The position numbers were made by a program, and so were the translations under genes. Shown here piece after piece: positions 6,349-31,476 of a stretch of DNA of 62,727 nt. The notes beneath the pieces were generated by a model. It ran no database searches. It saw only the letters and a list, made by a program, of their open reading frames with translations, and was not told the origin of the DNA. Each line of letters opens with the position of its first letter. Position 1 is the stretch's first letter. Source of the stretch: Candidatus Methanosuratincola sp. (lineage in GTDB: Archaea; Thermoproteota; Methanomethylicia; Methanomethylicales; Methanomethylicaceae); contig JBBFLR010000008.1 in assembly GCA_037478935.1 (NCBI GenBank), positions 1 to 62,727 on the forward strand, written 5' to 3'.

Positions 6349-7278
6349 TTGGAGAGCCTCTCGGAGATAATCGATGTCGCAAAGAACTTCAAGGGACTGA
6401 AGAGGAAAATCGAGATAGGGGAGATCACGGCGATACTTGGGGAGCACGAATACGACGATGCCGGATTCATAGATCTCGGAGACGTCAGCATCGTCGTGTC
6501 GACGGACGGAATAACTGAGGATCTCGTAAAGTCCGATCCGTGGTTTGCCGGATACTACTCCGTTCTTGTCAACGTCAACGACGTGGTCGTAAAAGGGGCT
6601 AGGCCGATGGGCTACGTCAATGTGATGTCTGGGACCAGGGAGAACAGGCGTAAGATGGCTGAGGGCATAAGGGCGGGGCTGGACAAGTACGGTCTCAAGC
6701 TCTTGAAGGGGCACACCCACCCAGACTCCTCTTACGAGGCAATCGATGCGGCTGTCGTCGGCATTGCCAGGCGCGTGGCTAAGGGAAACACTGCCCGTCC
6801 AGGCGACAACATCGTGATGGCGATCGACCTAGAGGGATCCTTCGGTGTAAAGGGGTGGGTGAAGTGTTTTGACAGCACGCTTAAAAAGGGGACCTCAGAG
6901 CTCAGAAAGATGATCGACTCAATTATATCTGCTGTGGAATCTGGCTCGGTCAAGGCATCGAGGGACATTAGCGCACCTGGCATCCTCGGCAGCTTGGCCA
7001 TGCTGTGCGAGGCTAGCTCGGTTGGGGCTGAGGTCGACGCAGACAAGATACCGCGGCCTGGGGGGACTGGGATCTCGGAGTGGTTCATCTCCTATCCTGC
7101 AATGGGATTCATATTTGCCTCTGATGACGAGTCGCTGGTCTCGAAGCTCCGCGCCTCAGGCTTTTCAGCAGAGATCGTGGGGAAATTCAACGAAACAAAA
7201 AGGATATGTGTAAGGCTTGGTGGAGACCGTAGGTTGTTCATGGATCTCTCAAGGGAGTCCGTTTTTGGAACTCATTAG
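6349..7278 (+). CDS. Methanogenesis marker protein 2 (AIR synthase-related)
   Basis: 309-residue member of the PurM/SelD/ThiL-like ATP-binding superfamily, matching methanogenesis marker protein 2. Visible features are the N-terminal glycine-rich loop, VVSTDGITEDL (metal/nucleotide-binding aspartate), a LVNVNDVVVKGARPMGY block and a C-terminal GGTGISEWF segment. TTG 6349 is used, with GAGGG at 6338-6342 as ribosome site and TATTATATATTG around 6302-6313 as TATA element. The reaction is unknown; family membership suggests ATP-dependent phosphorylation or ligation in cofactor or MCR maturation. Its end overlaps the end of the convergent A2 gene by 30 bases. Confidence 0.85.
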   Translation: MESLSEIIDVAKNFKGLKRKIEIGEITAILGEHEYDDAGFIDLGDVSIVVSTDGITEDLVKSDPWFAGYYSVLVNVNDVVVKGARPMGYVNVMSGTRENRRKMAEGIRAGLDKYGLKLLKGHTHPDSSYEAIDAAVVGIARRVAKGNTARPGDNIVMAIDLEGSFGVKGWVKCFDSTLKKGTSELRKMIDSIISAVESGSVKASRDISAPGILGSLAMLCEASSVGAEVDADKIPRPGGTGISEWFISYPAMGFIFASDDESLVSKLRASGFSAEIVGKFNETKRICVRLGGDRRLFMDLSRESVFGTH

Positions 7279-8874
7279 CTCGTCTTTCTCCTCCGGGGTA
7301 AGCTCCTTTGCCACATCTGAGGGCTTGCCCCTGCCGACTACTTTGCCGTTCCTCATCAGTATGGCATCATCGCATGTGTTCTCCACGAACCCCATATCAT
7401 GAGAAATTATTACAAATGTCTGACCGAGCTCGTTCCTGGCGTTCTTTATCGACTTTGCAACGTCCTGCTGGGTTATCGGATCCATCGTGCCCGAGGGCTC
7501 ATCAAGGAGCACTATTATTGGCTCCTTTATCAGCACCTGCGCGAGGGCAACCCTGTGTCTTTCCCCCTCACTCAGCTCATCCGGGTACTTGGAGAGCGTC
7601 CTTTCAATAGTTGCCTCATCGAACCCCGCAGCTGTCAACACGCTCTGTGCCTTGAACCTGGCGAACTCGTCCGGAAGCTCAAGGCCTATTGCATCGGTCA
7701 GGTTCTCCTGCACCGTCCTGTGGGGGTAAAGTGCGTACTCTTGGTGCAGAAGCCCGATGAACGGCGTGGCCCTGCCTCTGCCCGTCGGTCCGGGCTCCAG
7801 CATGTTGACCCACTCATCGCCGATCTTTAGCTCGATTGTGCCTGATGTAGGCTGCGTCACGCCGACTATCGCCCTGGAGAGTGTGGTCTTGCCTGCGCCG
7901 CTCAGCCCTATTATCCCGAAGATCTCCCTCTCCCTCACCTCGAAAGTGACCCCATCCAGCGCCTTGACAACTCCCTTGTCTATGGAGAAGTAGTACTTCT
8001 TAAGATCTTTCACCCTCAGCACTACATCCCCAAGCTGGGGCGGCTTCGGGATCTCCTCCGGTACGAGCCTAGACAGGAACTTGGTGGCGACTTCATGGGG
8101 ATTCCCCATCAAACTAATCTTACCATCTTCGAGCAGCACTGCCTTTTCGCAGAGTTCTTCTATTGCGCCAGGGAGGTGCGAGGTGACTATGAGTGTGCTC
8201 TTTCCTGGCCCGGTCTCCCTCTTTATGATCCTGTGGATCATATCTGCATTGAGGGGATCCAGCGTCCCAGTGGGCTCGTCAGCCAGCAGTAGAAGAGGCT
8301 TTATCGCCAACTGCCTGCCCAGGACAACCCTCTGCTTCTCGCCGCCGCTCAGATCCCTTGCGGCATGCAGGAGCCTGTTTGCCAGACCGATGTCTTTGGC
8401 TATCTCAAGCGCCTTCTTGGTCGCGTCCTCTGAGGATACCTTGCTGAGTGCCTCGACTAGGTTCTCGTAGACTGTAAGGCTGCCGTAGAGTGCGAATGTT
8501 CTCTGGAACATGATCGCTATGCGCTGTCTCAGCCATTTGCTCTTGGGATCCTCGCCGTAAATGTCTACGTCCGCCATCTCCATCTCTTTTAGGCAGTGGG
8601 GACAGCAGTGTGGGCACCTCTTTTTTGCCCAACTTGGTCCCTCTACAGTCTGGCAGTGCTCGCACACCGCTACATGGAAGATTACGTGACCAGATTCCGG
8701 CTTGTACTCCCTTATGCCCTTCAGCATCGAGAGTAGCACAGTCTTCCCCGATCCGCTCTTCCCTATTACGCCGACCCTCTCTCCTTCATCTATGGTGAGG
8801 GAAACATTGTCCAATACTTTATTCCCGTTGAATGACTTTGATACATTCCTGATTTCTATGAAAGGAACGCCCAT
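7249..8874 (-). CDS. atwA: MCR activation component A2, ABC-type ATPase
   Basis: 541-residue protein with two ABC ATPase domains and no membrane segments. Domain 1 has Walker A GKSGSGKT, a signature LSGGEKQR and Walker B LLLADEP; domain 2 has GLSGAGKT, LSEGERHR and VLLDEP. Between Walker A and signature 1 there is a zinc-finger-like insert (VCEHC ... RCPHCCPHC), which is also typical of canonical component A2. A2 drives ATP-dependent reductive activation of F430 nickel to Ni(I) in MCR. It is a monocistronic gene on the minus strand with a TATA-like element near 8918-8930, convergent with marker 2. A second A2-like gene lies at 24383-26062. Confidence 0.92.
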   Translation of the reverse strand: MGVPFIEIRNVSKSFNGNKVLDNVSLTIDEGERVGVIGKSGSGKTVLLSMLKGIREYKPESGHVIFHVAVCEHCQTVEGPSWAKKRCPHCCPHCLKEMEMADVDIYGEDPKSKWLRQRIAIMFQRTFALYGSLTVYENLVEALSKVSSEDATKKALEIAKDIGLANRLLHAARDLSGGEKQRVVLGRQLAIKPLLLLADEPTGTLDPLNADMIHRIIKRETGPGKSTLIVTSHLPGAIEELCEKAVLLEDGKISLMGNPHEVATKFLSRLVPEEIPKPPQLGDVVLRVKDLKKYYFSIDKGVVKALDGVTFEVREREIFGIIGLSGAGKTTLSRAIVGVTQPTSGTIELKIGDEWVNMLEPGPTGRGRATPFIGLLHQEYALYPHRTVQENLTDAIGLELPDEFARFKAQSVLTAAGFDEATIERTLSKYPDELSEGERHRVALAQVLIKEPIIVLLDEPSGTMDPITQQDVAKSIKNARNELGQTFVIISHDMGFVENTCDDAILMRNGKVVGRGKPSDVAKELTPEEKDELMSSKNGLP

Positions 8875-10937: not shown

Positions 10938-12179
10938 CTATCTTCTGGTCTCCTCGAGCTCTTTCATCCCGGATACCATCACAGCTGCGCCGACGCACCC
11001 TATCAGATTAGGCTTTTCAGGGACTATCATCTCCACGCTGAGTATCTCGGAGAGCGCCTTGACCAGCCCCTTGACAAGCGCGGTCGATCCGACCTGAATT
11101 ATCGGGTACCTGATGTCTATCTCCTGGAGCTGCTGCTCAAATACCTGCTCGGCCACGCTGTGGCACGCAGCTGCCGCCGCATCCTCCGGCTTTGCCCCTC
11201 CTGCAAGACCCGCGACAAGGTCTTGAAGCCCGAAGACAATGCAATAAGCATTCATTGGCACTGCCTTCCAGTCTCCTTTCATCGCGAGGTCCCCGAACTG
11301 CTCTATCGGAACGCCGAGCCTTTTCGCCGTGGTTTCGAGGAACCTCCCTGAGGCGCCTGCGCAGACCCCTCCGACGGTGAAGCTGTCAGGGATGCTGTCA
11401 TAAAGCGTTACCGCCTTGTTGTCCATGCCTCCTATGTCTATGACAGTGGCGTCCCCCCTCTGCTTGTCGGTCAGGAACAGCGCCCCTTTGGAGCATGTCG
11501 AGACCTCCTCCATTGCGAGCTGTGCCTTGTATTTCTCCTTAAGTATGGTTCTTCCGTAGCCGGTCACCCCGATCCCCTCAATCCTGCTCTCATCTATTCC
11601 CGCCTCCTTGAGCGCTTGGTTCAGTGCCGTCATACCCGAGTCGAGGACACTGGTGGTGGGGACCCATCCGTGCCCTATGATCTCGTTGTCCTTCATAACA
11701 ACGGCCTTTGTCGTCGTGGAACCAGAGTCGATTCCGGCAGTTATCCCCTCCTGCTTCATCCTTGCGAAGAGAGGCTTCTTGTCTATGATGTTCACCAGAG
11801 CCTCCATGCGCAGTAGCAGCGCCCCTGCTTTCGTCCTCTCCGTGAATGAATAGGTCACTACTGGGATCTTTGTCTGGCTCTGGATATACCTCCTGACTAC
11901 ACTCCTCACCAGTGCGCCCTCAGCACACCTGAAGCAGGTCGCGATGAAGACACCATCTGCGTCGACCCTCCCCTCCACTATGGCCTTCGCCCTTGCCATC
12001 ATGACCCTCAGGCCCGGGCTTGCCACATGGAAACCGAGCTCGTCCTCAACCGTCCTGATCTCCGATACATCCACCTCTGGCACGAATATCTGCCCGCCGA
12101 CGATCTTTGCTGCCTTTTCGATCTCTGCCTGAATCCCGCTGTACTCAGAGCCGCATGATATTTGCGCTATCCTGACCAT
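10938..12179 (-). CDS. Methanogenesis marker protein 15 (ASKHA / BcrA-HgdC-like activator)
   Basis: 413-residue protein. The C-terminal two thirds is an ASKHA ATPase like the activators of 2-hydroxyacyl-CoA dehydratase and benzoyl-CoA reductase: [14 protein letters not shown] binds phosphate, and cysteines in [12 protein letters not shown] and NAYCIVFG correspond to the ligands of a subunit-bridging [4Fe-4S] cluster. An N-terminal extension of about 130 residues carries SCGSEYSG and [14 protein letters not shown]-driven low-potential electron transfer is the family mechanism; the target in methanogens is unknown. ATG 12179 has GGTGA five bases upstream. First gene of the ycaO-tfuA unit. Confidence 0.9.
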
Positions 12180-12281
12180 CTGCTTCACCAGTCTCTACAG
12201 ACATCCTTCGATATACCGTCTTCCTTGTCCAAAATAATACTTTCTGCTCGAGGGGGCAAACCCGACAAACCAAACCGAAGT

Positions 12282-16440: not shown

Positions 16441-17271
16441 TCAACCGCTGGTAATGCCGCCGCGCCCCGTTGAAGAAGGGGTGATCTTTGGCACAGGGGG
16501 CATCCTCCTCTTGTGGGCGCTCTCCCTGACCATCCTTACAACCTTCTCTACCTTTGCCGCGTAGTTTGGACCGAGGTCCCTCGCCACATCTTCCTTGCTC
16601 ATTCTCAGATCCAGGAAACGGTAAAGGATCAGGTCTATGTCTTCGTAGCTGATGCCCAGCTCACTTTCCGCCGTCTGCCCCTTCCAGAGCCTCGGGGAAC
16701 TCTCCTTCTCTATTATCTTCCGAGGGATCCCCAAATGCCTCGCCAGCTCCCTGACCTGGGTCTTGTAAAGGCAGCCGAGAGGGAGGAGATCTGCTCCTCC
16801 GTCTCCATACTTGGTGAAGTATCCGATCATGAGTTCGCTCTTATCCCCGCTCCCTATTACGATCCTCCCTTCCGAATTTGCCACGTAATACAGGATCGTC
16901 ATCCTCAGCCTCGCCCTCACGTTCCCCTCTGCCACCTTGTCCTTGGACTTACCCCCCGCCGAGGCCAGCTCTGTAACGAGCTTGGATGCCTGGGTGATGT
17001 CGATGGTCCTGTACCTTATACCAAGGCTTTCAGCCATCGCCTTAGCATCCTTGACATCCTCGTCCGGGGTGGCCGCGGAGTCAGGCATCACGAGACCCAG
17101 GACCTTTTCCCTGCCGAGCCCCCTCACTGAGAGGGCCGCCGCAACCGAAGAGTCGATCCCGCCGCTCAGCCCAACCACGGCGCCCCTCTTGCCGACCCTG
17201 GCTCTTATGAAGTCACATATCTTGGAGGCCACAAGTTCGGCGTCAAAATAAGCAATGCAGCCTGAAGGCAT
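16441..17271 (-). CDS. nadE: NH3-dependent NAD+ synthetase
   Basis: 276-residue NAD synthetase that amidates nicotinic-acid adenine dinucleotide with ATP. The PP-loop VVGLSGGIDSSVAAAL is at residues 31-46, GSGDKSELMIGYFTKYGDGGADLLPL is the classic substrate-binding block (only its core need be noted), and SPRLWKGQTAESELG follows. It lacks the glutaminase domain, so it uses ammonia. The promoter is probably the A+T-rich stretch 17290-17320. A small C-terminal tail beyond the family core is Gly/Ser-rich. Confidence 0.95.
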   Translation of the reverse strand: MPSGCIAYFDAELVASKICDFIRARVGKRGAVVGLSGGIDSSVAAALSVRGLGREKVLGLVMPDSAATPDEDVKDAKAMAESLGIRYRTIDITQASKLVTELASAGGKSKDKVAEGNVRARLRMTILYYVANSEGRIVIGSGDKSELMIGYFTKYGDGGADLLPLGCLYKTQVRELARHLGIPRKIIEKESSPRLWKGQTAESELGISYEDIDLILYRFLDLRMSKEDVARDLGPNYAAKVEKVVRMVRESAHKRRMPPVPKITPSSTGRGGITSG

Positions 17272-17362
17272 ACTTTACCATTCCAAGGGATAGTTCTACC
17301 TCAATATATAAAAGCTTAAATCGAGGCAGGTTTCCTTAATTGAAGCAAAGGGGCGCATGATC

Positions 17363-17656
17363 ATGTCAAAGGATCAGGCAATTGGTGCAGGAATACTGGC
17401 AACATCGGTAGTCCTGATTGTGGTTTACCTCTGGTGGCTTTTCTTCTCAGAGTGGTCTTGGTGGGCAATAGTGCTGCCCGTCTTAATGATGGTCCTGGCA
17501 GTCCTCGGCATCGCAGGTTGGATCGGCTATACTATGGCGACAACCCCTCCCCCTAAGCCTCTGGAGGAGATACCCGAGCTCTCCGATGTGACCGGGGGGA
17601 AGGAAGCGGGGACATCTGAGTCAAAGCCTACCGAAGAGAAGAAGGAAGGAAGCTAA
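17363..17656 (+). CDS. Small membrane protein, unknown function
   Basis: 97 residues with two hydrophobic segments (about 7-28 and 34-57) and a charged Pro/Glu/Lys-rich tail, predicted to lie in the cytoplasm. ATG 17363 is chosen over ATG 17357 because the AAGGGG element (17348-17353) is then nine bases away. It precedes tpiA on the same strand and may be co-transcribed. No family was recognised. Confidence 0.65.
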   Translation: MSKDQAIGAGILATSVVLIVVYLWWLFFSEWSWWAIVLPVLMMVLAVLGIAGWIGYTMATTPPPKPLEEIPELSDVTGGKEAGTSESKPTEEKKEGS

Positions 17657-17706
17657 CCAGAAACATTTTCAATTTTTTGACAATTTTAGACAAAGAGGGG
17701 TTTTAT

Positions 17707-18390
17707 TTGAGGGTTGGTTTTCCGATTATACTCGTGAATTTCAAGACCTACAGGGAATCGATGGGACTCAAGGGCCTTGAATTGGCCAAGGCTGCGGAGC
17801 GGGCATCTGGCGAAACTGGAGTCTGCATAGCCGTTGCGCCGCAGACGCCAGACCTCTTTAGAATAACCAGTAGCGTCGCGATTCCTGTTTTCTCGCAGCA
17901 CGTGGATCCCGAGGAGCCTGGCGCCCACACCGGGAGCGTGACACCCGAGTCGCTCAAGGAGGCAGGGGTCTCCGGGACAATTCTGAACCATTCCGAGCGG
18001 AGGCTCAGGATAGACCTCATAGAGGAGGCCGTAAGGCGGTGCTCCTCCTTGGGGCTTTTGACGTGTGTCTGCGCCAATACCCCGTTGGCTGGCAGGGCCG
18101 TAGCCAGCTTCTGCCCGGAGATGGTGGCGGTAGAACCCCCGGAGCTGATTGGGAGCGGCGTGTCGGTCTCCAAAGCCCGACCGGAGGTGGTTAGCGGAAC
18201 CGTGCGGCTGATAAAGGAGGTTTCGAGTGGCGTGCATGTGCTTTGCGGGGCTGGAATCACCTCAGGAGAGGACGTCTCGGCTGCAATAAAGCTCGGCGCC
18301 GAGGGAGTGCTGGTCGCCTCTGGGGTCGTGAAGGCCAAAGAGCCTCTGAAGGCACTAATGGATCTCGCGGAGCATTCCATACCAAGTTGA
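17707..18390 (+). CDS. tpiA: Triosephosphate isomerase (archaeal type)
   Basis: 227-residue short archaeal triosephosphate isomerase interconverting dihydroxyacetone phosphate and glyceraldehyde 3-phosphate. Catalytic residues are visible: Lys in NFKTY, His in LNHSERR and Glu in VAVEPPELIG; the phosphate-binding glycine loop is VLCGAGITSGED. TTG 17707 with GAGGGG six bases upstream is the best start; an in-frame TTG at 17677 would add an unlike N-terminus. It ends just before a run of T and A that separates it from the convergent secreted-protein gene. Confidence 0.92.
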   Translation: MRVGFPIILVNFKTYRESMGLKGLELAKAAERASGETGVCIAVAPQTPDLFRITSSVAIPVFSQHVDPEEPGAHTGSVTPESLKEAGVSGTILNHSERRLRIDLIEEAVRRCSSLGLLTCVCANTPLAGRAVASFCPEMVAVEPPELIGSGVSVSKARPEVVSGTVRLIKEVSSGVHVLCGAGITSGEDVSAAIKLGAEGVLVASGVVKAKEPLKALMDLAEHSIPS

Positions 18391-18409
18391 GTAAAAAGGC
18401 GATTTAAGC

Positions 18410-18430
18410 TATTTTTTTAAAAAAAAAGAA
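18410..18430. terminator. Bidirectional T/A-tract terminator
   Basis: T-run followed by A-run (about 18412-18428) between the convergent tpiA and small secreted-protein genes. It offers oligo-T on both strands and so can end both transcripts. Confidence 0.55.
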
Positions 18431-18451
18431 AAGAAAGGGTGCTTGCCCTTA

Positions 18452-18805
18452 TCATTTCCCATATCCGATGCAATTCTGGTTTCTCAGTTGAAGCATTTCC
18501 CTCAGTGGGAAGATAAAGCTCTGACATTCTGGGTCACTTGAGCCCGCATCCGCATGAATCATCTCTCTTTCCTGGACTCTGAGCTGAGCCCTCTCTTGGG
18601 TCATACATGCCCCGGAGTCGGCAGGACTGGACCCTGGGCATTCTCTGTCTTTCAGCTGTTCTCTGTCTTGTTTCTGTATAGGGTTGTGGATGGGTAAGGC
18701 CTTCTGGTTCTCAAAGAGATCTCCATTCGAAGCTGCTAGGGTTGAGGCTATCGGTATCGCTGCAATCAGCAGCGCCGCCAACAAGAATATTGCCGTTTTC
18801 TTCAT
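18452..18805 (-). CDS. Small secreted protein, unknown function
   Basis: 117 residues beginning with a clear signal peptide (MKKTAIFLLAALLIAAIP followed by a small-residue cleavage region near residue 24). The mature part is hydrophilic, with a Gln/Arg/Glu-rich segment (KQDREQLKDRE, RAQLRVQEREM) and five scattered cysteines that could form disulfides. ATG 18805 has GGTGA five bases upstream, favouring it over an in-frame start at 18841. No family recognised. Probably exported by the Sec route. Confidence 0.65.
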   Translation of the reverse strand: MKKTAIFLLAALLIAAIPIASTLAASNGDLFENQKALPIHNPIQKQDREQLKDRECPGSSPADSGACMTQERAQLRVQEREMIHADAGSSDPECQSFIFPLREMLQLRNQNCIGYGK

Positions 18806-21962: not shown

Positions 21963-22508
21963 CTATTCTTCTATACCAATCAGGACAGTCCCCAGGTCGC
22001 GGCACTCCGTGTCTATCCCCATCCTGCTTTTCAGGAACAGGTCTGCCGGGGGAGAGGGGCTCCCGACCACCGCCTTTTTGCCGAGGATCTCCCCCAATTC
22101 GAGCGGCAATATCTGCACCATCGTCTCGTCCCTCCTGTCCTTGAAGAGCCTCATCTTGTCCCTGTAGAAGACCAGAGTCCCTGCGACTATGTTCCCCTCG
22201 CACTTGAGCCTCTCGAGCCTCGCCTCTTCATTCACGTCCTCTCCTATCACTTCTTCCCCGCAAACTATCTTTATGTATGACGACTGGGGCCACTTGAAGC
22301 ACCTGTCAGTGGCACAGGCAAAGACCCTCCCCTTCTTGAGCGCCTCCCTTACGCCTATGTTTATCCCCCTACAAAGGCCCATCAGGACGCCCTTTTCAGC
22401 CTGCTCTTCGAGCCTCAAGACCTCTGACTTCTCCTCCTCTGTCAGCTCCTTTACGCAAATTACTCCTTCTATCCCCTTAAGCGCTCTTACAAAGTCATCT
22501 TCTGACAT
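21963..22508 (-). CDS. Unknown Cys-rich protein in the MCR-activation operon
   Basis: 181 residues, soluble, no family recognised. It contains seven cysteines, among them GLCRG, FACATDRCFKW, IVCGEE, LKCEGN and TECRDLG, spread over the middle and end, plus a Gly/Pro segment VGSPSPPADLF. The start ATG 22508 overlaps the end of the corrinoid-activator gene by 14 bases, so it is the last gene of the marker3-marker6-marker17-marker7-A2-like-activator operon. The context implies a role in reductive activation or metal-cofactor care; the cysteines allow metal or Fe-S binding. Both are inference. Confidence 0.6.
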   Translation of the reverse strand: MSEDDFVRALKGIEGVICVKELTEEEKSEVLRLEEQAEKGVLMGLCRGINIGVREALKKGRVFACATDRCFKWPQSSYIKIVCGEEVIGEDVNEEARLERLKCEGNIVAGTLVFYRDKMRLFKDRRDETMVQILPLELGEILGKKAVVGSPSPPADLFLKSRMGIDTECRDLGTVLIGIEE

Positions 22509-24393
22509 AGCGCCTTACCATCCTCGGTGCCCTCACCTCTTCCATGGTCTCAGGGAAGTCCTCCAGCTTACTATTCGGCATGTACATCGCGTTGATGTAC
22601 TCTTCTTCAAAGATCGGCTGTGCCGCAAGTTCTATATATTTTACCTTCGAGGCCACCATCTGGGCTTCGTGCCTCACCTCGAGCGACTTAAGGCAGAGCC
22701 TCGCACCCGATCCGGCTGTGTTGCCGGTGAATGATATTTTTTCAAGGGGTAGCTCCGGTATCATCCCGATTATCCTTGCGTTCTTAGGGTCAATGTAGTT
22801 GCCGAAAGCCCCTGCTATTATTATTTCAGCGAGGTCCCCCCTGTTTAGCCCCCCTTTCCTGACCAGTGTCATGAATCCTGCATAGATTGCTGCCTTGGCC
22901 TTCTGTATCTCCCTGATGTCGTCCTGGGTAATGACTATGTCCTCCTTGCCTGTCTCGGTCTCCTCCTTGGGGACGAGGACGAACTCCCTCCCCCCCTCCC
23001 CGTCCCGGACACTATTGCCCGCCTGCTGGATCCTACCCGATGTGTCTATCAATCCTACCTTAAGCATCTCGGCGACAGCGTCGATCATGCCCGAGCCGCA
23101 TATCCCCCGCGGCTTCTTGTCATCAATCGTCTTATAGGATGCCCTAAAGTCGGAGTCTATCCACACCTTCTCTATGGCGCCGCTTGCAGCCCTCATACCG
23201 CACCTTATGTGCGCCCCCTCAAAAGCGGGACCAGACGCAGTCGAGCACGCCAATATGCCCGTCTTGCTTCCTAGCATCACCTCTGTGTTGGTTCCCACGT
23301 CCATCAGAAGCGTCAGCCTCTCCTTCTCGTGCAGCCTTGATGCCAGGATGTCTGCTATCGCATCTGCGCCCACAAAGCCTGCTACGTTCGGGAGTAGGTG
23401 CACATTGCCTGCTGGGTTGATTGCAACGCCTGTGTCTCTTGCCTTGCTGTCGCTGGATCTGCCGACACCCGCAGCATAGGGTGCAAGCCCAAGGCTCTTC
23501 ACGTCAACTCCTGCGAAGAGGTGGTGCATTGCCGTGTTGCCCACGAGCACCGCCTCGTACACCTCATCCCTGCTGATCTCAGCCCCGGCGATGCCCTCTT
23601 CCAGTAGGGCGTTTATACCTTCAACTATTGCGCTGCGTATCTCCTCAAGGTGCCCCTTCCCCTGCGACGCATAATTGATCCTGGATATCACGTCCTCGCC
23701 GAATTTTATCTGGGGGTTCATCGTTCCGTCTGCATAGACTATCGTGCCGTCATTCAAGTCAACAATGAATGCCGCGAGTTTTGTAGTGCCTATGTCTACC
23801 GCCAGTCCGTACTTCCTTGCGGTGGTGTCCCCCTTCTCTAGCCCAATGACCTCCTTCCTCCCAAGGACTACGGCGGTCACCTTCCACCCCGCATCTCTGA
23901 GTATTCTAGGCATTTCCCTGGCTACAGTCGTGTCTATCGTGAGGTCCGGGTACCCTTTTCCCGAGAGGCTGGCCATTAACCTTTCATCGTCGGCAGTCGG
24001 ATCCTCGAGGGACGGTGGACAAAGCTCGAGGTAGACCTTGTCCACGTTGCTCATGATCTGCACAGGGGGCTCCTTCCCCATGATCACAAGCCTCTGCTTG
24101 CCGACTCTGCTCTGATCCGGCACCCTAATCATAACGTTGCCCTCGACGTAAGCCTGGCAGGCAAGCCTGTAATTCCCGTCCAACTTCTCTTTGGGGAGCC
24201 TCTTCTTTTCATGTTCCGTCAGCGGCGAAACCTTTCCCTCTATCACCTCTACGAGGCACTTCCCGCAGTAGCCCTTTCCTCCGCATATTGCCGCCAGATC
24301 AACCTCCCCCTTGAGGGCAGCCGACATCAGGGTCGTCCTCTCAGGGACCCTGCACCTCTTCCCTTCCGGCAGGAATACAACTTCAAATTCCAC
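22495..24393 (-). CDS. Reductive activator of corrinoid proteins (2Fe-2S / ASKHA, DUF4445 type)
   Basis: 632 residues. The N-terminus is a plant-type [2Fe-2S] ferredoxin with ligands C37, C43, C46 (CGGKGYCGKC) and C79. After a linker, the large domain is an ASKHA ATPase beginning YGLAVDIGTTKLAAF, with a second phosphate motif MDVGTNTEVMLG. Such proteins use ATP and a low-potential electron to return inactive Co(II) corrinoid methyltransferase proteins to Co(I). GTG 24393 has GGAGGAGA six bases upstream and overlaps the preceding A2-like gene by 11 bases. Unlike methanogen RamA it carries its cluster at the N-terminus. Confidence 0.88.
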   Translation of the reverse strand: MEFEVVFLPEGKRCRVPERTTLMSAALKGEVDLAAICGGKGYCGKCLVEVIEGKVSPLTEHEKKRLPKEKLDGNYRLACQAYVEGNVMIRVPDQSRVGKQRLVIMGKEPPVQIMSNVDKVYLELCPPSLEDPTADDERLMASLSGKGYPDLTIDTTVAREMPRILRDAGWKVTAVVLGRKEVIGLEKGDTTARKYGLAVDIGTTKLAAFIVDLNDGTIVYADGTMNPQIKFGEDVISRINYASQGKGHLEEIRSAIVEGINALLEEGIAGAEISRDEVYEAVLVGNTAMHHLFAGVDVKSLGLAPYAAGVGRSSDSKARDTGVAINPAGNVHLLPNVAGFVGADAIADILASRLHEKERLTLLMDVGTNTEVMLGSKTGILACSTASGPAFEGAHIRCGMRAASGAIEKVWIDSDFRASYKTIDDKKPRGICGSGMIDAVAEMLKVGLIDTSGRIQQAGNSVRDGEGGREFVLVPKEETETGKEDIVITQDDIREIQKAKAAIYAGFMTLVRKGGLNRGDLAEIIIAGAFGNYIDPKNARIIGMIPELPLEKISFTGNTAGSGARLCLKSLEVRHEAQMVASKVKYIELAAQPIFEEEYINAMYMPNSKLEDFPETMEEVRAPRMVRRYVRR

Positions 24394-26062
24394 GCTCTAT
24401 CTCCTCCAAGAACTTCCTCAATACCGAGGACGGATCCCCGTCCATCACCACTTTACCATCCAGCATCAGTACCACTCTGTCAGAAACCTCCTCAAGGAGG
24501 TCAAGCTGGTGGCTGACAAGTACTATTGCAGGCCTTAGCTTCTTCTTTACCATCTTCAACGAGTTCGCAACTAGTCTCAGGGTTATTGGGTCCAGGTCGC
24601 CGAAGGGCTCGTCGAGGATGAGCACCTTTGGGTTGGAGACCAGTGAGAGGGCAAGGGCCACCCTTATCTTCTCGCCCCCGCTCAGCTCGTAGACGCTGCG
24701 GTCGAGGATCTCGGGCCCCAGTCCTACGGCATGCAGTACAGCAAGCGCCACATCCCTTGCCTTTTCCGGATCTTTCGATCTGAACAGCTCCCTCAGCAGT
24801 TCATTGCTTATCCCCATCTCGCTCAGCTTTGCCTTCATCTCGCCCTCAGGGAGCTCTGATACTCTGCTAAGTGCATCCACTACCTCTTCCGAGAGCCCCG
24901 CCCTCTTCCCCTTCCTAAGAGCAGCTTCGAGCAGGCCATAGTCCTTGAGCCCAAGCTTTGCCGCAAAGAGATCAAGGACCTTGGCGAAGTGAGGCAGGTC
25001 GAACTCCTGATGCATTATGCCGATACGCCTCCTGGCGAGCATGTTTCTCCTGCCGAGCTTCCCGAGGACAACCCACTCCCCCTTGTAAGTTATCCTTACC
25101 TCACCCCTGTCTGGCATTTCGAGACCGGAGAGCATTCTTAGTACGACCGTCTTGCCCGCACCTGAAGGGCCGACTATGCCTGTTATCTCGCCCCTCCTGA
25201 ATTCAAGGTTAGTCTCGGCCATCTCGAAGACCAGTCCATAAGGTATGAGCTTGTACGTCTTGCAGGCTCCCTCCATCCTCAGCACTGTAGGGCCCTCTAT
25301 CCTGGTCTTGTCGATCGGCTCCTCGATCCCAGATAGGAACCTTGTCAATACTTCTCCGGTCCGCCCGTCCTCTGCGATCTTCCCCCCCTCGATCAGGATG
25401 GTCCTCTCCGAGAGCGATCTGTGCGTTTGGGGGTTGTGGGACGCGAAGAGGATCGCGATCCCCAGCTCCCTGTTTGCCCGCTTCAGGGCATCCAGGAGCG
25501 CTTCCCTGGTTGCAGGGCAAGTCATTGTGCCGGGCTCGTCCAGCAGCAAGAGCTTGGGCTTTCTGGCTATCTGCCTGGCAATTATCAGCCTCTGCTTTTC
25601 CCCACCGCTGAGGACTTCGGACCAGAGCCCCGCCCTCTTGCCAAGCCCAACTACATCGAGTATCTCCATCGCCCTCTCTTGGTACTCCTTGTACTCGCCC
25701 TCTGCTTCGGGGATTGTCTCATCGAAGCCGTCGGAATACCTCAATGCCCTTATCACGTTGTCTAATGCACTGTCGGGCCAAAGCCCGAAGCTCCTCTGTA
25801 GCTGGATTGCCGTCTTCCGCTGGAGCTCAAGCACATCCCCCTTCGGTGAGTCGGGAGTTATCCTGACACCATCAAAGTTCACCGATCCCTTGTCAAAGCT
25901 TTCCACCCCCCTGATTACCCTCAGGAGCGTACTCTTGCCTGCGCCGCTTCTGCCCACGATCCCGACCACTTCTGCCTCTCCTACTGAAAAAGAAACCCCG
26001 TCCAGGGCGACAATCCCCCTTTCGGGATATTTCTTTGTGAGACCCTCTACTTCAAGCAACAA
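24383..26062 (-). CDS. Second component A2-like ABC ATPase
   Basis: 559 residues, two soluble ABC ATPase domains. Domain 1: GRSGAGKSTLL, LSGGEKQRLIIARQ, LLLLDEPGT; domain 2: GPSGAGKTVVL, LSGGEKIRVALAL, VLILDEP. It is a paralogue of the A2 gene at 7249-8874 but has no Cys-X2-Cys insert in domain 1, and domain 2 has an extra helical stretch of about 80 residues before its signature. The start is TTG 26062. It sits between marker 7 and the corrinoid activator in one operon. It may power MCR activation, corrinoid activation, or both; sequence alone does not decide. Confidence 0.85.
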   Translation of the reverse strand: MLLEVEGLTKKYPERGIVALDGVSFSVGEAEVVGIVGRSGAGKSTLLRVIRGVESFDKGSVNFDGVRITPDSPKGDVLELQRKTAIQLQRSFGLWPDSALDNVIRALRYSDGFDETIPEAEGEYKEYQERAMEILDVVGLGKRAGLWSEVLSGGEKQRLIIARQIARKPKLLLLDEPGTMTCPATREALLDALKRANRELGIAILFASHNPQTHRSLSERTILIEGGKIAEDGRTGEVLTRFLSGIEEPIDKTRIEGPTVLRMEGACKTYKLIPYGLVFEMAETNLEFRRGEITGIVGPSGAGKTVVLRMLSGLEMPDRGEVRITYKGEWVVLGKLGRRNMLARRRIGIMHQEFDLPHFAKVLDLFAAKLGLKDYGLLEAALRKGKRAGLSEEVVDALSRVSELPEGEMKAKLSEMGISNELLRELFRSKDPEKARDVALAVLHAVGLGPEILDRSVYELSGGEKIRVALALSLVSNPKVLILDEPFGDLDPITLRLVANSLKMVKKKLRPAIVLVSHQLDLLEEVSDRVVLMLDGKVVMDGDPSSVLRKFLEEIERGI

Positions 26063-26078
26063 ACTGCATTTGCCCCCT

Positions 26079-26981
26079 TCAAAACATTGACTTCGGAAGA
26101 ACTTTCACGAGGATGTAGTTCCTCATCAGCGATCTCTTTATCACCGCAAAATCAGACAGCTTCTTGCCTCCAATACTTATATTGCCTATCTTGTCCTTGT
26201 AGTCATCGTAAGGCAGCTTAACCCTCACGCCGTCAATCTTGAGTGTGACTGGATTCGGGGACAGCGCTTCTGTGGACTCGGGCACCTGCCTCTCAACCTC
26301 TGCCTTTACAATGATCGGGTCAACGATGAGAGGATCCAGATCCATCTCCCTCCTCCTCTGCTCGACTACCTCGCCAGCGACCCTCGAGACCTCCCTCAGT
26401 TTCTCGATCGACTCCCCCGTCCTTGCCCTCTCGGGGTATCTCCCTATGCCCCCAACATAGGCCTCGGCCCCGGGGATGCTTTTCATGACAGGGCCGCCCG
26501 TCACTATCACCGGCACTTCGATCTCCGCGAAGAGCTTTGTCTTCTTCATAAGGCACCTTTCAAAGTTACCGAGTGTGAATACCGCAATGTCGTGTTCCTC
26601 TACGAGCTCCTTCTCCTTTATCGTTGTGTGCACTATCTTCTGCCCCACCCCCCTCGAGAGCCCTATTATATTCGTCTTTGCCCCGTGCCTCCTTAAGTTC
26701 TCTGCAATGTCGCACGCCGGGTGTGGGAGGTGGTGCCTCGAGAGTGTCGGTGCGACGACCGCTATCTCGGTGCCTATAAGTGGGGCAGGGGTCAGCTTAC
26801 CCTTCAGCTCTGAAACTATCCCTGAGATCCGTCCGAGCTCCTCCTCAGGGACAGCCAAGTTCATTATGAGATCGAGTCCAACCACCGTCTTCTGGACTAG
26901 AAAACCGCCCACGTCCTCAAGGAACTCGAGTATCCTTTCGTGCTTATACAGTCCACCTTCGAATAGGAGGTACTTAAGCAT
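26079..26981 (-). CDS. Methanogenesis marker protein 7
   Basis: 300-residue protein matching methanogenesis marker 7. Recognisable blocks are GGLYKHERILEFLEDVGG at the N-terminus, TLSRHHLPHPACDIAENLRR, and AVFTLGNFERCLMKK followed by VIVTGGP. As I recall, structural work on a Methanococcus MCR-activation complex found marker 7 together with McrC, markers 3 and 17, and A2, carrying complex Fe-S clusters; the Cys in PACD and ERCL are candidate ligands here. ATG 26981 has GGAGGA eight bases upstream and overlaps the marker 17 stop by eight bases. Confidence 0.88.
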   Translation of the reverse strand: MLKYLLFEGGLYKHERILEFLEDVGGFLVQKTVVGLDLIMNLAVPEEELGRISGIVSELKGKLTPAPLIGTEIAVVAPTLSRHHLPHPACDIAENLRRHGAKTNIIGLSRGVGQKIVHTTIKEKELVEEHDIAVFTLGNFERCLMKKTKLFAEIEVPVIVTGGPVMKSIPGAEAYVGGIGRYPERARTGESIEKLREVSRVAGEVVEQRRREMDLDPLIVDPIIVKAEVERQVPESTEALSPNPVTLKIDGVRVKLPYDDYKDKIGNISIGGKKLSDFAVIKRSLMRNYILVKVLPKSMF

Positions 26982-27540
26982 GGGTGTTCTCCTCCAGCCT
27001 CCTGGCGAGCTCTCTCCAGTCTTCCCTTATCGGATCTTCCGAGGCGATTATCGCTATCATGCCTTTCTTTTTTGTTGAACTCCTTACCCTGAATCCTTCT
27101 GGAATGATCCTGGTCGCAAGCTCGTTTATTCTGGAATCGAGGTCGTACCCTTTCTCGCTGAGGCCTATCCCCTTTACCTCTTCAGGGTCAGCACCCGAAA
27201 CAAATATCTCGAGCCTGCCAATCTGCTCGACCCTGTCTCTACCGTATTTCGACCATAGCGCCTTTAGCGCATCCCCAAGGAAGATCTCGCTGCTCAGGGT
27301 TATTCTAATCCCGTTCTTTCTAGAGTCTATGTAGGATGCATCGCCCAAAGTCTTCTTGCCAGTGACTTCCTTGTACCTTATGACTATTATAAAGAGGGGT
27401 TCCTCTACCCTTATCAGCATTTCAATGGAATCGATGCTACCTCCTAGCCCGAGGTCCTCGACGCTCTTCTCTGCTATGTACTTGTACTGCTGTCCGCCCA
27501 GCTCGTCTGATGAATCCACGAATATCCTAATCTTTCCCAC
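26974..27540 (-). CDS. Methanogenesis marker protein 17
   Basis: 188 residues matching methanogenesis marker 17: an N-terminal beta-rich part (KIRIFVDSSDELGGQQYKYI), a middle GDALKALWSKYGRDRVEQIGRLEI and a C-terminal IPEGFRVRSSTKKKGMI. No cysteines, so it probably acts as a structural partner in the MCR-activation complex rather than a cluster carrier. GTG 27540 lies 14 bases inside the end of marker 6. Part of the overlapping minus-strand operon. Confidence 0.87.
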   Translation of the reverse strand: MGKIRIFVDSSDELGGQQYKYIAEKSVEDLGLGGSIDSIEMLIRVEEPLFIIVIRYKEVTGKKTLGDASYIDSRKNGIRITLSSEIFLGDALKALWSKYGRDRVEQIGRLEIFVSGADPEEVKGIGLSEKGYDLDSRINELATRIIPEGFRVRSSTKKKGMIAIIASEDPIREDWRELARRLEENTHA

Positions 27541-27946
27541 CCTCTTCCTCGATAACCTTTCTCAGCTTCTCCACCCCGAGCTTCGTCTTCGGAGTCTCTG
27601 CGGGGATCTCCTCCACCCCCCCTTGGAGCGCCTTTGAAACGTTCTTCAGAACCTCCCGCTCGGAGCTCAGCATGTGGTATCCCGGCCTTGGGCCTCCGCC
27701 CCTCTTAGCCCTACAGATCCTCTCATCGCCGATCCTGTACCCACGCTGCTTGTAGAACACCTTTTTCGGATCCATTGCCCTCATCTCCTCAAGGGCGGCT
27801 CTTACCTTATCCTCTTCCCCCTCCACAAGAAGGCCATAGCATGTCTCCTTATAGTCTATCCCGCCCATCTGGGCCGCTCTCTCGGCGAGCATGGAGGGTG
27901 TCAGACTGGAATCCGGGGAAAGGACTACAATGAATGTCTTGATCAT
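27527..27946 (-). CDS. Methanogenesis marker protein 6
   Basis: 139 residues. SPDSSLTPSMLAERAAQMGG, YKETCYGLLVEGEED and RIGDERICRAKRGGGPRPGYH identify the methanogenesis marker 6 family. Its biochemical role is unknown. ATG 27946 overlaps the marker 3 stop (ATGA), so translation is coupled. Charged C-terminal tail. Number assigned from memory of the family; it belongs in any case to the methanogen-specific marker set. Confidence 0.82.
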   Translation of the reverse strand: MIKTFIVVLSPDSSLTPSMLAERAAQMGGIDYKETCYGLLVEGEEDKVRAALEEMRAMDPKKVFYKQRGYRIGDERICRAKRGGGPRPGYHMLSSEREVLKNVSKALQGGVEEIPAETPKTKLGVEKLRKVIEEEGGKD

Positions 27947-29478
27947 CCTCTCAGCTCCTGGACATACAGCTCTTCGCCCTCCTTAAGTCTCATGAGCAGG
28001 CCCAGATCCCCCTTCACCTCTCCGATAAGATTCGTCCCATCAAAGCTCTCAGCAGTAGGCCCGAAGCTCTCGCTTTCCTTGATCCTGATCCCTATCATGC
28101 CTGCGAACTTCTTCACAGTATTGGTAACTCCCAGCGCTCCGGCCGCTACCTTCCCGGCTGGCGTGTTCTCGGGCGTGAGTCCTTTTGCAATATCCTCATT
28201 TCCCTTGAAAAGGATCATCTCCATCTTAGGTGTCGCGAAGTAGACTTTCAATTTCCCGAATGCCTTCCGCTCAAGCCCTGTGACTGCCCTGAAGTACCTC
28301 ACCGAGTTCGGGGCTTCTTTCTCATAGAGCCTGATCCTGAGGATATTCTCCATGCTTATCACTTTGCACCTGACCACTCCCTTCTTGTAAATCTCTAGCA
28401 GGTTCTGCGGCTCATGCTCTACGATAATTCCCCGCTGAGGATCTGCGGGTGCCGATTCGGTTTCCATCTTGACGCCCATTGCGTCCAAGGCGAGTCTTGC
28501 CTCAGAGACTCTCTTCCCGAGGATCTCGATCCTCGGAGGCCTGACAAATACTGCGAGGCGGTCCCCCTCTTTTGCCAGGTCCACGAGTTCGATCCCTTCG
28601 ATAACCGTCCCGACGATGGTATGAGATTGAGCCAGAGGTGCATCCTTCTTGTAGATATATGCTGCCCCAACATTCTCTCCAGAATTCCTTATTGTGAAGC
28701 TGCTTCTCTTTCTCTCACTGAGCTTCTCAACCGGCAGGGAGAGTACTCTTTTCTCATTGCAGCAGATGTAACTGCTAGTCTCTGACGAGATCTTGATGAC
28801 GCCTTCCTGTAAAACGTTATACGCCTGCTCTCCGCAGACCGGGGAGTCGTAGTCGAGCTGTACCCCGACTTCGGTGAAGACCCTGTCCCCCTCTTCGAGG
28901 ACCGTCTCCGCCTCCCCCTTGAGCAGCGACTTTGCCAACTCCCTCGTCTCGAATACTGGTTTAATCGTGAGGATCTTGTCACCCATCTTGAGCAGTCCGA
29001 CCAAGTGCCTCCCATAGACCACCCTCCCTAGGACAGGGCATCCCTTTGGTGGGTAATAGGAGGCCGAATGCGGTCGCCTGGAGAAGACCAGAAGCGTATT
29101 CTCCTTGCTGAGTCCTGACAGACTCAGCGTCACTTCGTATCTGCCGAGAGTGACGGGTTCAAGTGAGGGCTGCGCGTCAAACATGGTCGAACCAAAAACG
29201 ACCGCATCCTTTGTGGCCCACCTCACCCCTGCACCCTCGTATCCATTGTAGGACCTCCTCCATCTCTCGAGGAGATCCCCGCATTCTACCTTTATTACCA
29301 TCCGGCCCTTAGTAGTCTCTATTTCAAAAAGGTCTGTCTCGATACTCTCCTCCTCAACCTCCTTCTTGACTGCGATTATGCACCCCTCTTTGACACTTAT
29401 ACCCAACCTTTCAAGCATCACTCCTAGGCGCTCTCCTTCATTCGCCTCGTACTCCTTTCCGTTGACAAAGATTCTCAA
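27943..29478 (-). CDS. Methanogenesis marker protein 3
   Basis: 511 residues from TTG 29478 (GAGAGG is the ribosome site); GTG 29502 is an alternative that would be nearly leaderless. The N-terminus RIFVNGKEYEANEGERLG is a ubiquitin-like beta-grasp domain. Later segments include LLVFSRRPHSASYYPPKGCP, a four-Cys region (VCGEQAYN, SYICCNEKRV) and a cyclophilin-like barrel with YFRAVTGLERKAFG near the C-terminus. Marker 3 belongs to the UPF0288 group and, as I recall, is a subunit of the MCR-activation complex. It heads the seven-gene minus-strand operon and diverges from mcrD. Confidence 0.88.
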   Translation of the reverse strand: MRIFVNGKEYEANEGERLGVMLERLGISVKEGCIIAVKKEVEEESIETDLFEIETTKGRMVIKVECGDLLERWRRSYNGYEGAGVRWATKDAVVFGSTMFDAQPSLEPVTLGRYEVTLSLSGLSKENTLLVFSRRPHSASYYPPKGCPVLGRVVYGRHLVGLLKMGDKILTIKPVFETRELAKSLLKGEAETVLEEGDRVFTEVGVQLDYDSPVCGEQAYNVLQEGVIKISSETSSYICCNEKRVLSLPVEKLSERKRSSFTIRNSGENVGAAYIYKKDAPLAQSHTIVGTVIEGIELVDLAKEGDRLAVFVRPPRIEILGKRVSEARLALDAMGVKMETESAPADPQRGIIVEHEPQNLLEIYKKGVVRCKVISMENILRIRLYEKEAPNSVRYFRAVTGLERKAFGKLKVYFATPKMEMILFKGNEDIAKGLTPENTPAGKVAAGALGVTNTVKKFAGMIGIRIKESESFGPTAESFDGTNLIGEVKGDLGLLMRLKEGEELYVQELRG

Positions 29479-29502
29479 GGGGCCCCTCTCCAGCGATAGC
29501 AC

Positions 29503-29546
29503 TACATTATTAAATCCCTGATTAATTTATAGGTTAGTGATCCGGC
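29503..29546. promoter_or_regulatory. Divergent promoter between marker 3 and mcrD
   Basis: Only 44 bases separate the outermost marker 3 start from ATG 29547 of mcrD. TATTAAATC (about 29509-29517) fits the rightward promoter and CTATAAATTAAT (minus strand, about 29522-29533) the leftward one. Overlapping back-to-back TATA elements mean the two halves of the MCR maturation island are probably controlled together. Confidence 0.5.
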
Positions 29547-29873
29547 ATGTCTCAGCAAGCTCAATTCAGGGAAATTGAAGTCATGCCAAGGCGGCTGATC
29601 GGCGACAAGAAGGCAAAGGATTTGGTCGCGATAATACGCGAGACTGAGGGAGTCGAAGAGGTTCTGACCCACGGACCTAGATTTTCCGGAGGAGGGCGCC
29701 TTACAGGCAGGTTCATAATTGTAGTGAAGACTGGATTCACACCTGAAGAAATCATCGAAAAGATCAGGCCTGTATGCGACCAGACCATGCCTTACGGCTA
29801 CGACGTCCGAGTGGGGCAGTTCACCAAGCCGAGGCCGACCGTCAAGGACTACCTCCGTGGTTTAGAAAGGTGA
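29547..29873 (+). CDS. mcrD: MCR operon protein D (McrD)
   Basis: 108 residues. EIEVMPRRLIGDKKAKDL at the start, VLTHGPRFS in the middle and PYGYDVRVGQFTKPRPTVKDYL at the end are McrD hallmarks. McrD binds the MCR apo-enzyme or an assembly intermediate and is not part of the mature catalyst. It is shorter than McrD of classical methanogens, missing part of the central loop. In those organisms the gene sits between mcrB and mcrG; here it is some 25 kb from mcrA and heads the mcrD-mcrC-marker5-HTH unit. Confidence 0.9.
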   Translation: MSQQAQFREIEVMPRRLIGDKKAKDLVAIIRETEGVEEVLTHGPRFSGGGRLTGRFIIVVKTGFTPEEIIEKIRPVCDQTMPYGYDVRVGQFTKPRPTVKDYLRGLER

Positions 29874-29878
29874 ACCGA

Positions 29879-30538
29879 TTGCAGGACTCGATTGGCAGGG
29901 ACGTGCAGATAGTCGACTGCAGGGAGTCGATGGGCATCGGAGAGGGGGGAGGCCTGGCCCAGCGTGGGACCATCTCAGAATCCGAGAGCTTCGAGGTGGT
30001 GGCAATTGCAATGTCGCCCTCGAAGCGGCACATAACAAAGCCGATCTGTGAGATAACATATGGCCTCAGAGAGCAGGGGATAAGGACAAGCGTACTGGTG
30101 CTCGAGTCCGGGTCTGGCGTCCCTCCGGACTCACCTTACGGGGGTGCGCCCGGAGGGTCGATGGCCGGCATTAACGAAAAGGAGGTCTTCCAGATAAGGC
30201 GTTTCAAGCTTGCCCTCATCCACCTCGGAGGCATCAGCGGCCACGTGGTTCACAAGGCAAAGTCATTTCTGCGATATGTAGACATACCTGCAATAATCGT
30301 GTGCGAGGCCCCTGTGGACTACGAGGACTTTGCAAAGGTCGGGATAATAACTAGGCTGGTGCGCCCCCCTCCTGGCAAGGTCGAATGTGCCGGGGTAATT
30401 GTTGACTTGGTCACCGGCGTTGTCCGGGGCGTCAGCTGCCCAAGGGACAAGCTGAATGAGATAGTGATAAAAGTGAAGTTCTGGTTGAGCAAGATAGACA
30501 GCAGAGAAGTGATCCTCGGGAGGAATAGTGTTGGCTAA
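29879..30538 (+). CDS. mcrC: MCR activation protein C (McrC)
   Basis: 219 residues. VDCRESMGIGEGGGLAQRGT, MSPSKRHITKPICEITYGLR and GVVRGVSCPRDKL identify McrC, a component of the ATP-dependent MCR-activation complex. Candidate cluster ligands are the Cys in VDCRES, PICEIT, IVCEAP and VSCPRD. TTG 29879 is chosen because GGTGA (29869-29873, including the mcrD stop) is five bases upstream; GTG 29870 is then part of the ribosome site. The gene overlaps marker 5 by eight bases. Confidence 0.93.
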   Translation: MQDSIGRDVQIVDCRESMGIGEGGGLAQRGTISESESFEVVAIAMSPSKRHITKPICEITYGLREQGIRTSVLVLESGSGVPPDSPYGGAPGGSMAGINEKEVFQIRRFKLALIHLGGISGHVVHKAKSFLRYVDIPAIIVCEAPVDYEDFAKVGIITRLVRPPPGKVECAGVIVDLVTGVVRGVSCPRDKLNEIVIKVKFWLSKIDSREVILGRNSVG

Positions 30539-30995
30539 AGTGTTCATATTCCCGCCCAACAGTCTTATCCTGTACGATCTGGTGACTCGTGAGGGGCATA
30601 CCCCTCTAGGTCTCGGCGAAGAGGTTGCAAAGAACCTTTCGAAGCCAGAGATAGATTCGCCACCGATGAACATCACCCCAGACTTCCCTAGGAGGGGGCT
30701 GAAGTACGCTGCAATAGAGGTTCCGTCAGGGGTGAGGGGGCGCCTGGCATTGATCGGCCCGCTCATAGAGGAGGCCGATGCAGCGATCGTGGTGGAAGAT
30801 CCGGAGGCCCTGTTTGGCTGTGCCAGCTGCGGCAGGACAAACGAGTTCATCCGGTACATACTGAAGCGCAAGGCAATACCCGTTGTTGTGGTTCCTTACC
30901 CGCGCACGGAGGACGACGCAAGGACGATGGTTTCAAAGATAAGGTCATTCCTCAGATCTCTCGGTGATAAGAATGGTGTGCCTAGTGGTTCCTGA
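30531..30995 (+). CDS. Methanogenesis marker protein 5
   Basis: 154 residues. FIFPPNSLILYDLVTREGH, PEIDSPPMNITPDFPRRGLK and VPSGVRGRLALIGPLIEEAD are near-diagnostic of marker 5; a cysteine pair lies in LFGCASCGRTNEF. The function is unknown. TTG 30531 has GGGAGG seven bases upstream; GTG 30528 is the alternative. It overlaps mcrC upstream and the HTH gene downstream, so all four genes of the unit are translationally coupled. Confidence 0.88.
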   Translation: MAKVFIFPPNSLILYDLVTREGHTPLGLGEEVAKNLSKPEIDSPPMNITPDFPRRGLKYAAIEVPSGVRGRLALIGPLIEEADAAIVVEDPEALFGCASCGRTNEFIRYILKRKAIPVVVVPYPRTEDDARTMVSKIRSFLRSLGDKNGVPSGS

Positions 30996-31476
30996 CGAAA
31001 AACTTGCTGCGGTCTGCAGCGCCCTGATTGACGATAAGTCTCGGGAAGTACTCCTGTCCCTTAAGAAGGGTCCGCTGACGATGGATCGGATGTCGGAGGC
31101 GCTCTTGATAAGCAAGAAGGACGCATCAGACCGGCTGGAAAAGTTAGTTAACGCAAAACTGGTCAGACGGATCCCAGGGAAAGGGGAGAGCTCTGACCTA
31201 TACGCGCTAGAGTTCTCGATCGAGGTCGGGGACGGGAAGGAATCCGTGCTGGCAGAAGAACTGTACCAAGTCATGGCAGAGTCCTTCTACTCTTTCTTGG
31301 ACAGGAACTCCGAGAAGGTATCGGACCTCTGCGACGAACTCGGAGCCTCGCTCGGTAGGGCAGTTGAGCAGATCTTCCTGAGCGCAATCGCGAAGATCAT
31401 TAATGACCTGCAGAGCGAGATGCTTGAGGAGGACAAGCGGCTGAGCGTTCATCTGGGCGGCGGGTCGCCTACCTGA
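30973..31476 (+). CDS. Winged-helix regulator-like protein in the mcrDC unit
   Basis: 167 residues. Residues 15-75 form a winged helix (ALIDDKSREVLLSL, GPLTMDRMSEALLISKKDAS, RLEKLVNAKLVRRI). The remaining 90 residues are helical and acidic, perhaps for dimerisation. ATG 30973 has GGTGA (30963-30967) five bases upstream and overlaps marker 5 by 23 bases. Co-translation with mcrD, mcrC and marker 5 makes it a candidate regulator of MCR maturation genes. Its end overlaps the next convergent gene by eight bases. Confidence 0.7.
   Translation: MVCLVVPDEKLAAVCSALIDDKSREVLLSLKKGPLTMDRMSEALLISKKDASDRLEKLVNAKLVRRIPGKGESSDLYALEFSIEVGDGKESVLAEELYQVMAESFYSFLDRNSEKVSDLCDELGASLGRAVEQIFLSAIAKIINDLQSEMLEEDKRLSVHLGGGSPT

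Follow-up and report, generated by a model that had tools for sequence, protein, structure and literature searches.

Genes for the activation of methyl-coenzyme M reductase (MCR) and a gene for RACo, an ATP-dependent corrinoid activator of the 2Fe-2S type, lie in one tightly packed row in the DNA of Candidatus Methanosuratincola sp., and this coupling is conserved in, and specific to, a single archaeal order within the genomes and loci surveyed. The row lies in a stretch of 62,727 nucleotides (nt) that was analysed as a whole (the window; contig JBBFLR010000008.1 of assembly GCA_037478935.1), the Mmp7 of which is 95% identical to three records named Ca. Methanosuratincola. We read it as a lineage-specific joint operon for the reactivation of nickel and cobalt, in which each activator would work on its own target, and put the probability of this reading at about two in three.

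Conservation of the gene row

The row is encoded on the minus strand and begins with Mmp3, an MCR-associated protein (27943..29502; TIGR03268, 481 bits, cut-off 234) that matches 8s7v_J of the solved complex (E 6e-77). Mmp6, methanogenesis marker 6 (27527..27946; TIGR03272, 129.2 bits, cut-off 125.95), overlaps Mmp3 by 4 nt and is followed by Mmp17 (26974..27540; TIGR03291, 128 bits, cut-off 67; 8s7v_G, E 2.5e-15), Mmp7 (26079..26981; TIGR03274, 394 bits, cut-off 349) and a double-ABC ATPase, here called A2b, which is a paralogue of A2/AtwA without the Zn loop (24383..26062; TIGR03269, 316 bits, cut-off 517.1). RACo (22495..24393), recognised by its Pfam domains and a match to 3zyy_X, comes next, adjoined by a 181-residue protein (21963..22508) with a nitroreductase-like fold predicted from AlphaFold models. 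The initial annotation had all of these genes overlapping; five of the junctions do, by 4, 14, 8, 11 and 14 nt, but Mmp7 and the ATPase are separated by a 16-nt gap, the sole non-overlapping junction on this strand.

Conservation was followed in a class sample of 40 genomes, in an order sample of 23 genomes (Methanomethylicales and kin) and in the best 80 of 276 related loci, the titles of which revealed no record from Methanomassiliicoccales, Korarchaeia or Methanofastidiosales. In 22 of the 23 order genomes RACo shares the strand of Mmp7 and lies <4 kb from it, the remaining one (G022) having both genes at contig ends, and RACo directly follows A2b in 20 of 21 named order loci, the 21st contig ending inside A2b. 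In 14 of 20 loci the ATPase and RACo genes overlap by exactly 11 nt, and in 15 of 18 those for RACo and the 181-residue protein by exactly 14 nt, with starts picked nearest to those of the window, a choice that favours equal values. Across the class, Mmp7 is present in 28 genomes and RACo_C_ter (PF14574) proteins in 32. One family of the class, f9, includes five genomes with Mmp7, three of which keep RACo far off or on another contig; in the other two, G034 (67% complete) and G035 (72% complete), no RACo match was found, while A2 is present in both and A2b in one. Neither RACo nor RamA was detected near Mmp7 in 59 loci from other archaea, many of them with <10 kb on one side, and the Methanocaldococcus jannaschii control carries Mmp7 and has no PF14574 match. 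The translational coupling of MCR activation genes to a corrinoid activator, as initially proposed, is thus borne out across the order by the 22 genomes and the kept overlaps, whereas the gene order, for which a wider survey had been suggested, stops at the border of the order, being absent from the 59 loci of other archaea and the five Mcr-bearing genomes of f9. The titles and abstracts of the searched literature, which leaves subscription papers on the group outside it, hold no description of RACo in an MCR activation row.

RACo and the small protein beside it

Matches over cut-off to PF14574, PF17651, PF17650 and PF00111 divide RACo into a Fer2 domain followed by linker, middle and C-terminal ASKHA domains. 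Residues 2-615 align with 3zyy_X (E 1.9e-124), the 2Fe-2S cysteines and ASKHA motifs included. Identity with AcsV was rejected at 510 against 800 bits (NF040756) and identity with RamA at 153 against 500 bits (TIGR04270), the operon protein having an N-terminal 2Fe-2S domain and not C-terminal 4Fe-4S domains. A true RamA (783 bits) is encoded elsewhere in the same genome as a second activator, beside MtaA-, MtaB- and MtaC-like genes.

The distribution of RACo in the class was compared with that of the corrinoid domain PF02607 and with that of Mmp7. Thirty genomes have both RACo and PF02607, two RACo only, none the corrinoid domain only and eight neither; for RACo and Mmp7 the respective numbers are 26, 6, 2 and 6, and in both comparisons the genomes are related, so that Fisher tests on the counts are not independent. 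Outside the order (17 class genomes), seven of the nine genomes with RACo have a corrinoid domain and three have Mmp7, as against none and two of the eight without RACo. RACo therefore tracks corrinoid proteins more closely than MCR in this class. The operon copy is the only RACo_C_ter match in 12 of the 23 order genomes, all of which have one to seven corrinoid-domain matches, and of 11 RACo loci outside the operon, 5 show an MtaC-like neighbour (L199, L201, L202, L207 and L208). Because of its domains, its co-occurrence with PF02607, the MtaC-like neighbours and its position as sole activator in 12 genomes, we hold that the operon RACo probably reactivates corrinoid proteins, and would do so from within an MCR operon. 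The earlier suggestion that one operon serves both nickel and cobalt is a fair one, since the coupling is conserved and the operon copy is so often the sole activator beside corrinoid-domain matches; the shared low-potential electron supply suggested along with it would be a step beyond this.

In a RACo tree of 47 rows, some with long branches, the operon copies do not fall on one side of a branch and two changes are needed, the operon copy of G009 and the stand-alone copy of G036 taking an unresolved position beside the rest. The topology is compatible with descent within the class and one relocation. Genome G010 has three PF14574 proteins: besides the operon copy and a RamA there is an additional RACo, encoded next to an MtaC-like gene (C18, L208), which groups in the tree with copies from another family (f19).

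The 181-residue protein has no Pfam or NCBIfam match at E 0.01 and no sequence match in the PDB. The cysteines C45 and C82 (numbered on a 180-residue query without the start Met) are near-invariant, each being absent from 1 of 15 rows; the initial label of a cysteine protein is misleading, as no CxxC is conserved. Assignment as an iron-sulphur (FeS) protein was rejected, with no conserved CxxC or other cysteine motif in the 15 rows. AlphaFold models of two different lead sequences reached pLDDT values of 90.7 and 91.1, and their best VIA matches are FMN nitroreductase-type folds, with Z up to 6.9 for the first model and 8.2 for the second; all 50 rows listed for the second model apparently belong to the nitroreductase superfamily by title. 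For the second model Foldseek gave iodotyrosine deiodinase at E 6e-3, with match probabilities of up to 0.98; the first yielded no useful match, its top ones being spurious (beta-galactosidase, for example), and neither model had a hit below 1e-3. A nitroreductase-like fold is accordingly predicted from the models. Several corrinoid-handling proteins (BluB, CblC and QueG) have a nitroreductase-type fold, and BluB (Z about 6-7) and QueG (Z about 3) appear among the structure matches; a corrinoid or flavin role is plausible.

The profile of this protein was found in all 23 order genomes, beside RACo in 21 (in G021 cut by the contig end). In G029 and G030 the gene lies outside the operon next to a divergent corrinoid gene (PF02607, 28 bits, cut-off 23), and has a LigD primase-polymerase-like gene on its other side (L232, 7506-9761; L233). 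A relative of the protein occurs beside RamA and MtaABC-like genes in L209, L210, L211 and L236; in these RamA-MtaABC blocks the relative and a CobW GTPase are separated by a 334-residue protein that matches no Pfam or NCBIfam family (L210, 5798-6802, and likewise in the other three). Plasmid records gave no match to the 181-residue protein or to its RamA-side relative.

MCR activation proteins and the operon ATPase

Homologues of McrC, Mmp7, Mmp17 and Mmp3 are present, with the FeS ligand residues of McrC and Mmp7. The ligands reported for Mmp7, H84, C90 and C143 (numbering of PMC12176620), are in place and all three are invariant in 11 aligned rows; those of McrC, C12, H49, C55 and H118, are in place in an alignment to 8s7v_I with native numbering mapped.

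The ATPase of the row had been called A2-like and linked to the activation complex, but the evidence identifies it as a paralogue without the Zn loop. Its 316 bits against TIGR03269 fall short of the cut-off of 517, which is passed at 727 bits by the true A2 (AtwA), encoded outside the operon at 7249..8874 of the minus strand. An N-terminal Zn-binding loop is reported to be conserved in A2 (PMC12176620); the four-cysteine loop (CxxC..CxxC) is present in the window's A2 and in 21 of 21 true A2 rows of a 38-protein alignment, and is deleted in 17 of 17 A2b rows as well as absent from 12 of 12 further A2b rows from other genomes. The two groups are separated by a 100/100 branch, and identity of the operon ATPase with A2 was rejected on all of these counts. 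An origin of A2b specific to the window's lineage was likewise rejected, A2b being present in several other archaeal lineages: of 25 other genomes, 17 encode a protein that matches A2b at E 1e-60 (in the 12 of these that were checked, its score to A2b is about double that to A2), and genomes with A2b include those of Methanobacteriaceae, Methanocaldococcaceae, Methanosarcinales and anaerobic methanotrophic archaea (ANME), Hadesarchaea and Bathyarchaeota BA2. Mcr archaea of several lineages hence have a pair of A2-type ATPases, only one of which possesses the Zn loop. Within the class both track MCR almost perfectly, A2b occurring in 27 and true A2 in 26 of the 28 genomes with Mmp7 and each in none of the 12 others; in family f9, A2b lies between McrA and McrD (L214-L216). 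Because A2b follows Mmp7 in the class and recurs in other Mcr archaea, we conclude that it belongs with MCR and is old. A second AtwA-like gene (AtwA1/AtwA2) in methanogens is noted in passages of PMC3087415 and PMC3226654 that give it no separate role, and A2b is probably the 'paralog of AtwA' of the latter. It probably helps in MCR activation.

On the plus strand, a second unit diverges from the row over 44 nt, taking the GTG start of Mmp3; the initial estimate of about 44-70 bases agrees with this value and with the 44-70 nt, depending on start choice, of five Methanosuratincola-like loci (L063, L064, L065, L067 and L068). The intergenic region (29503..29546) has TATA-like sequences in both directions, recognised by eye as a putative promoter and near-identical across the five loci. 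The unit consists of McrD (29547..29873; TIGR03260, 55 bits, cut-off 100), a short, weak match of 108 residues in which TIGR03260 covers the second half only; McrC (29879..30538, TTG start chosen; TIGR03264, 285 bits, cut-off 213.5), 5 nt downstream of McrD; Mmp5 (30528..30995; TIGR03271, 208 bits, cut-off 140); and an ArsR-type helix-turn-helix protein (30964..31476; PF01022, 24.5 bits, cut-off 22). The gene for the latter overlaps Mmp5 and accompanies the plus unit in 10 of 21 order loci, with several loci ending early there; the protein is a candidate redox regulator of both units. All eleven genes that the initial annotation assigned to the two units are present at their positions. The window also encodes McrB, McrA, an Mmp2-like protein, Mmp1, the TfuA partner of Mmp1 and, on the minus strand, the ASKHA-type activase Mmp15 (10938..12188; TIGR03286, 652 bits, cut-off 456), the gene of which lies between Mmp5 and Mmp17 in other Mcr archaea.

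Interpretation and relation to known systems

For a joint operon, we propose that in the order Mmp3-6-17-7 and A2b gained RACo and the small protein of predicted nitroreductase-like fold at their 3′ end. One leaderless-type transcript from the putative divergent promoter would then make a nickel team and a cobalt team together and allow their joint regulation. The nickel team would comprise Mmp3, Mmp17 and Mmp7, joined by McrC of the divergent unit and by A2, encoded 18 kb away, and probably aided by A2b, and the cobalt team RACo, which would reduce Co(II) to Co(I) on the corrinoid proteins of methyltransferases. These archaea form methane from methyl groups and H2, so that oxidation would inactivate both the Ni(I) and the Co(I) cofactor, and both centres would need to be reset before methane forms, each activator acting on its own target.

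Several observations weigh against this proposal. Twelve flanking genes of the window were tested and found in 5 to 16 of 21 order loci, nine of them in at least nine (several loci ending early), with an ACT-domain gene next to the row in 15 and another flanking gene in 16; since the flanks are partly conserved too, slow rearrangement may be enough to account for the gene order. A second PF14574 protein is encoded in eleven order genomes, where the operon RACo is therefore not the only activator. Of the 11 loci outside the operon, 6 showed no MtaC-like neighbour of RACo; no PF02607 match was found in two RACo-bearing class genomes (G007, 45% complete, and G039, 95% complete), and, outside the class, no RACo, RamA or MtaC neighbour of the 181-residue family in 15 of 15 loci. 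The partly kept flanks speak for synteny inertia, by which RACo landed once behind A2b in the ancestor of the order and stayed there, co-transcription being incidental; the slow rearrangement of small genomes and overlapping frames that make separation costly would be its cause, and a single origin is enough for the order. We regard this explanation as unlikely but not negligible. RACo has never separated in the 22 testable order genomes, whereas the small protein has moved away in G029 and G030 and the ACT gene is missing beside the row in L079 and L080; moreover in f9, of the same class, the Mcr cluster has been rearranged and RACo is located apart from it. Because RACo never left, the small protein did and f9 keeps RACo apart, a functional coupling is favoured over an inertial one by about two to one.

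A functional coupling could also mean that RACo, alone or with A2b, feeds the MCR activation complex, its 2Fe-2S domain passing low-potential electrons to FeSIII, the surface cluster at Mmp7/Mmp17, such that one ATP-driven reductase serves nickel and cobalt. PMC12176620 states that neither the physiological electron donor of MCR activation nor its further factors are known and draws a comparison with corrinoid activation, and the tight coupling to Mmp genes throughout the order would suit such a donor. The closer association of RACo with corrinoid proteins than with MCR argues against it, as do G034 and G035, which have Mmp7 and A2 (A2b in one) and no RACo match, the 59 other loci with neither RACo nor RamA near Mmp7, and M. 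jannaschii with Mmp7 and no PF14574 match; we consider a donor role highly unlikely. Slightly less likely still is a dual-metal activator, in which the ATP-gated 2Fe-2S domain of RACo would serve both Co(II) corrinoid proteins and the MCR complex at the Mmp7/Mmp17 surface cluster, with A2b coupling the two and the protein of predicted nitroreductase-like fold as a flavin or corrinoid shuttle.

Identity of the window to Ca. Methanosuratincola subterraneus (G023) is about 99-100% for most of 76-23,250 (92-97% at 16,500-18,500) and drops sharply at about 23,250, inside RACo; from there to 32,986, short bins give 68-90%. A similar break occurs in the RamA locus (L210, about 10,000-11,000). Such breaks may stem from recent recombination of the Mcr island between species or from chimeric assembly, and because of the sharp break inside RACo the window contig may be recombinant or chimeric, a further point against our reading. 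That the gene row itself is an artefact of a chimeric metagenome contig is nevertheless barely conceivable: the same order recurs in 20 named contigs and in 22 genomes of the order, and RACo forms a single open frame, which refutes a chimera for the gene order.

Were the dual-metal scheme true, one low-potential machine would prime every metal centre of methyl-reducing methanogenesis in the order. The coupling offers a concrete candidate for the donor and helper question that PMC12176620, where it treats MCR activation, leaves open, and the order lends itself to the question of whether the repair of Ni(I) and that of Co(I) are under common regulation.

Compared with systems already described, the locus is made of known parts in a new arrangement. 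All five components of the MCR activation complex of Methanococcus maripaludis described in PMC12176620 (McrC, Mmp7, Mmp17, Mmp3 and A2) have homologues in the window, but A2 lies outside the operon, which has A2b, RACo and the small protein instead; the parts of that paper covering the complex make no mention of RamA or RACo. RACo of Carboxydothermus (3zyy) matches over the full length, with 2Fe-2S and ASKHA domains common to both. Unlike AcsV, the cut-off of which it does not reach, the window's RACo is encoded with MCR genes and not with those of carbon monoxide dehydrogenase/acetyl-CoA synthase (CODH/ACS), and RamA of methylotrophic methanogens, from the same activator superfamily, probably does the same job although RACo falls far below the RamA cut-off. 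The Methanosarcinales/ANME cluster A2-Mmp3-6-5-15-17-7 has the same markers, with Mmp3, Mmp6, Mmp17 and Mmp7 in the same relative order, whereas in the window Mmp5 lies with McrDC and Mmp15 elsewhere, A2 is replaced by A2b at the other end, and RACo and the small protein are added.

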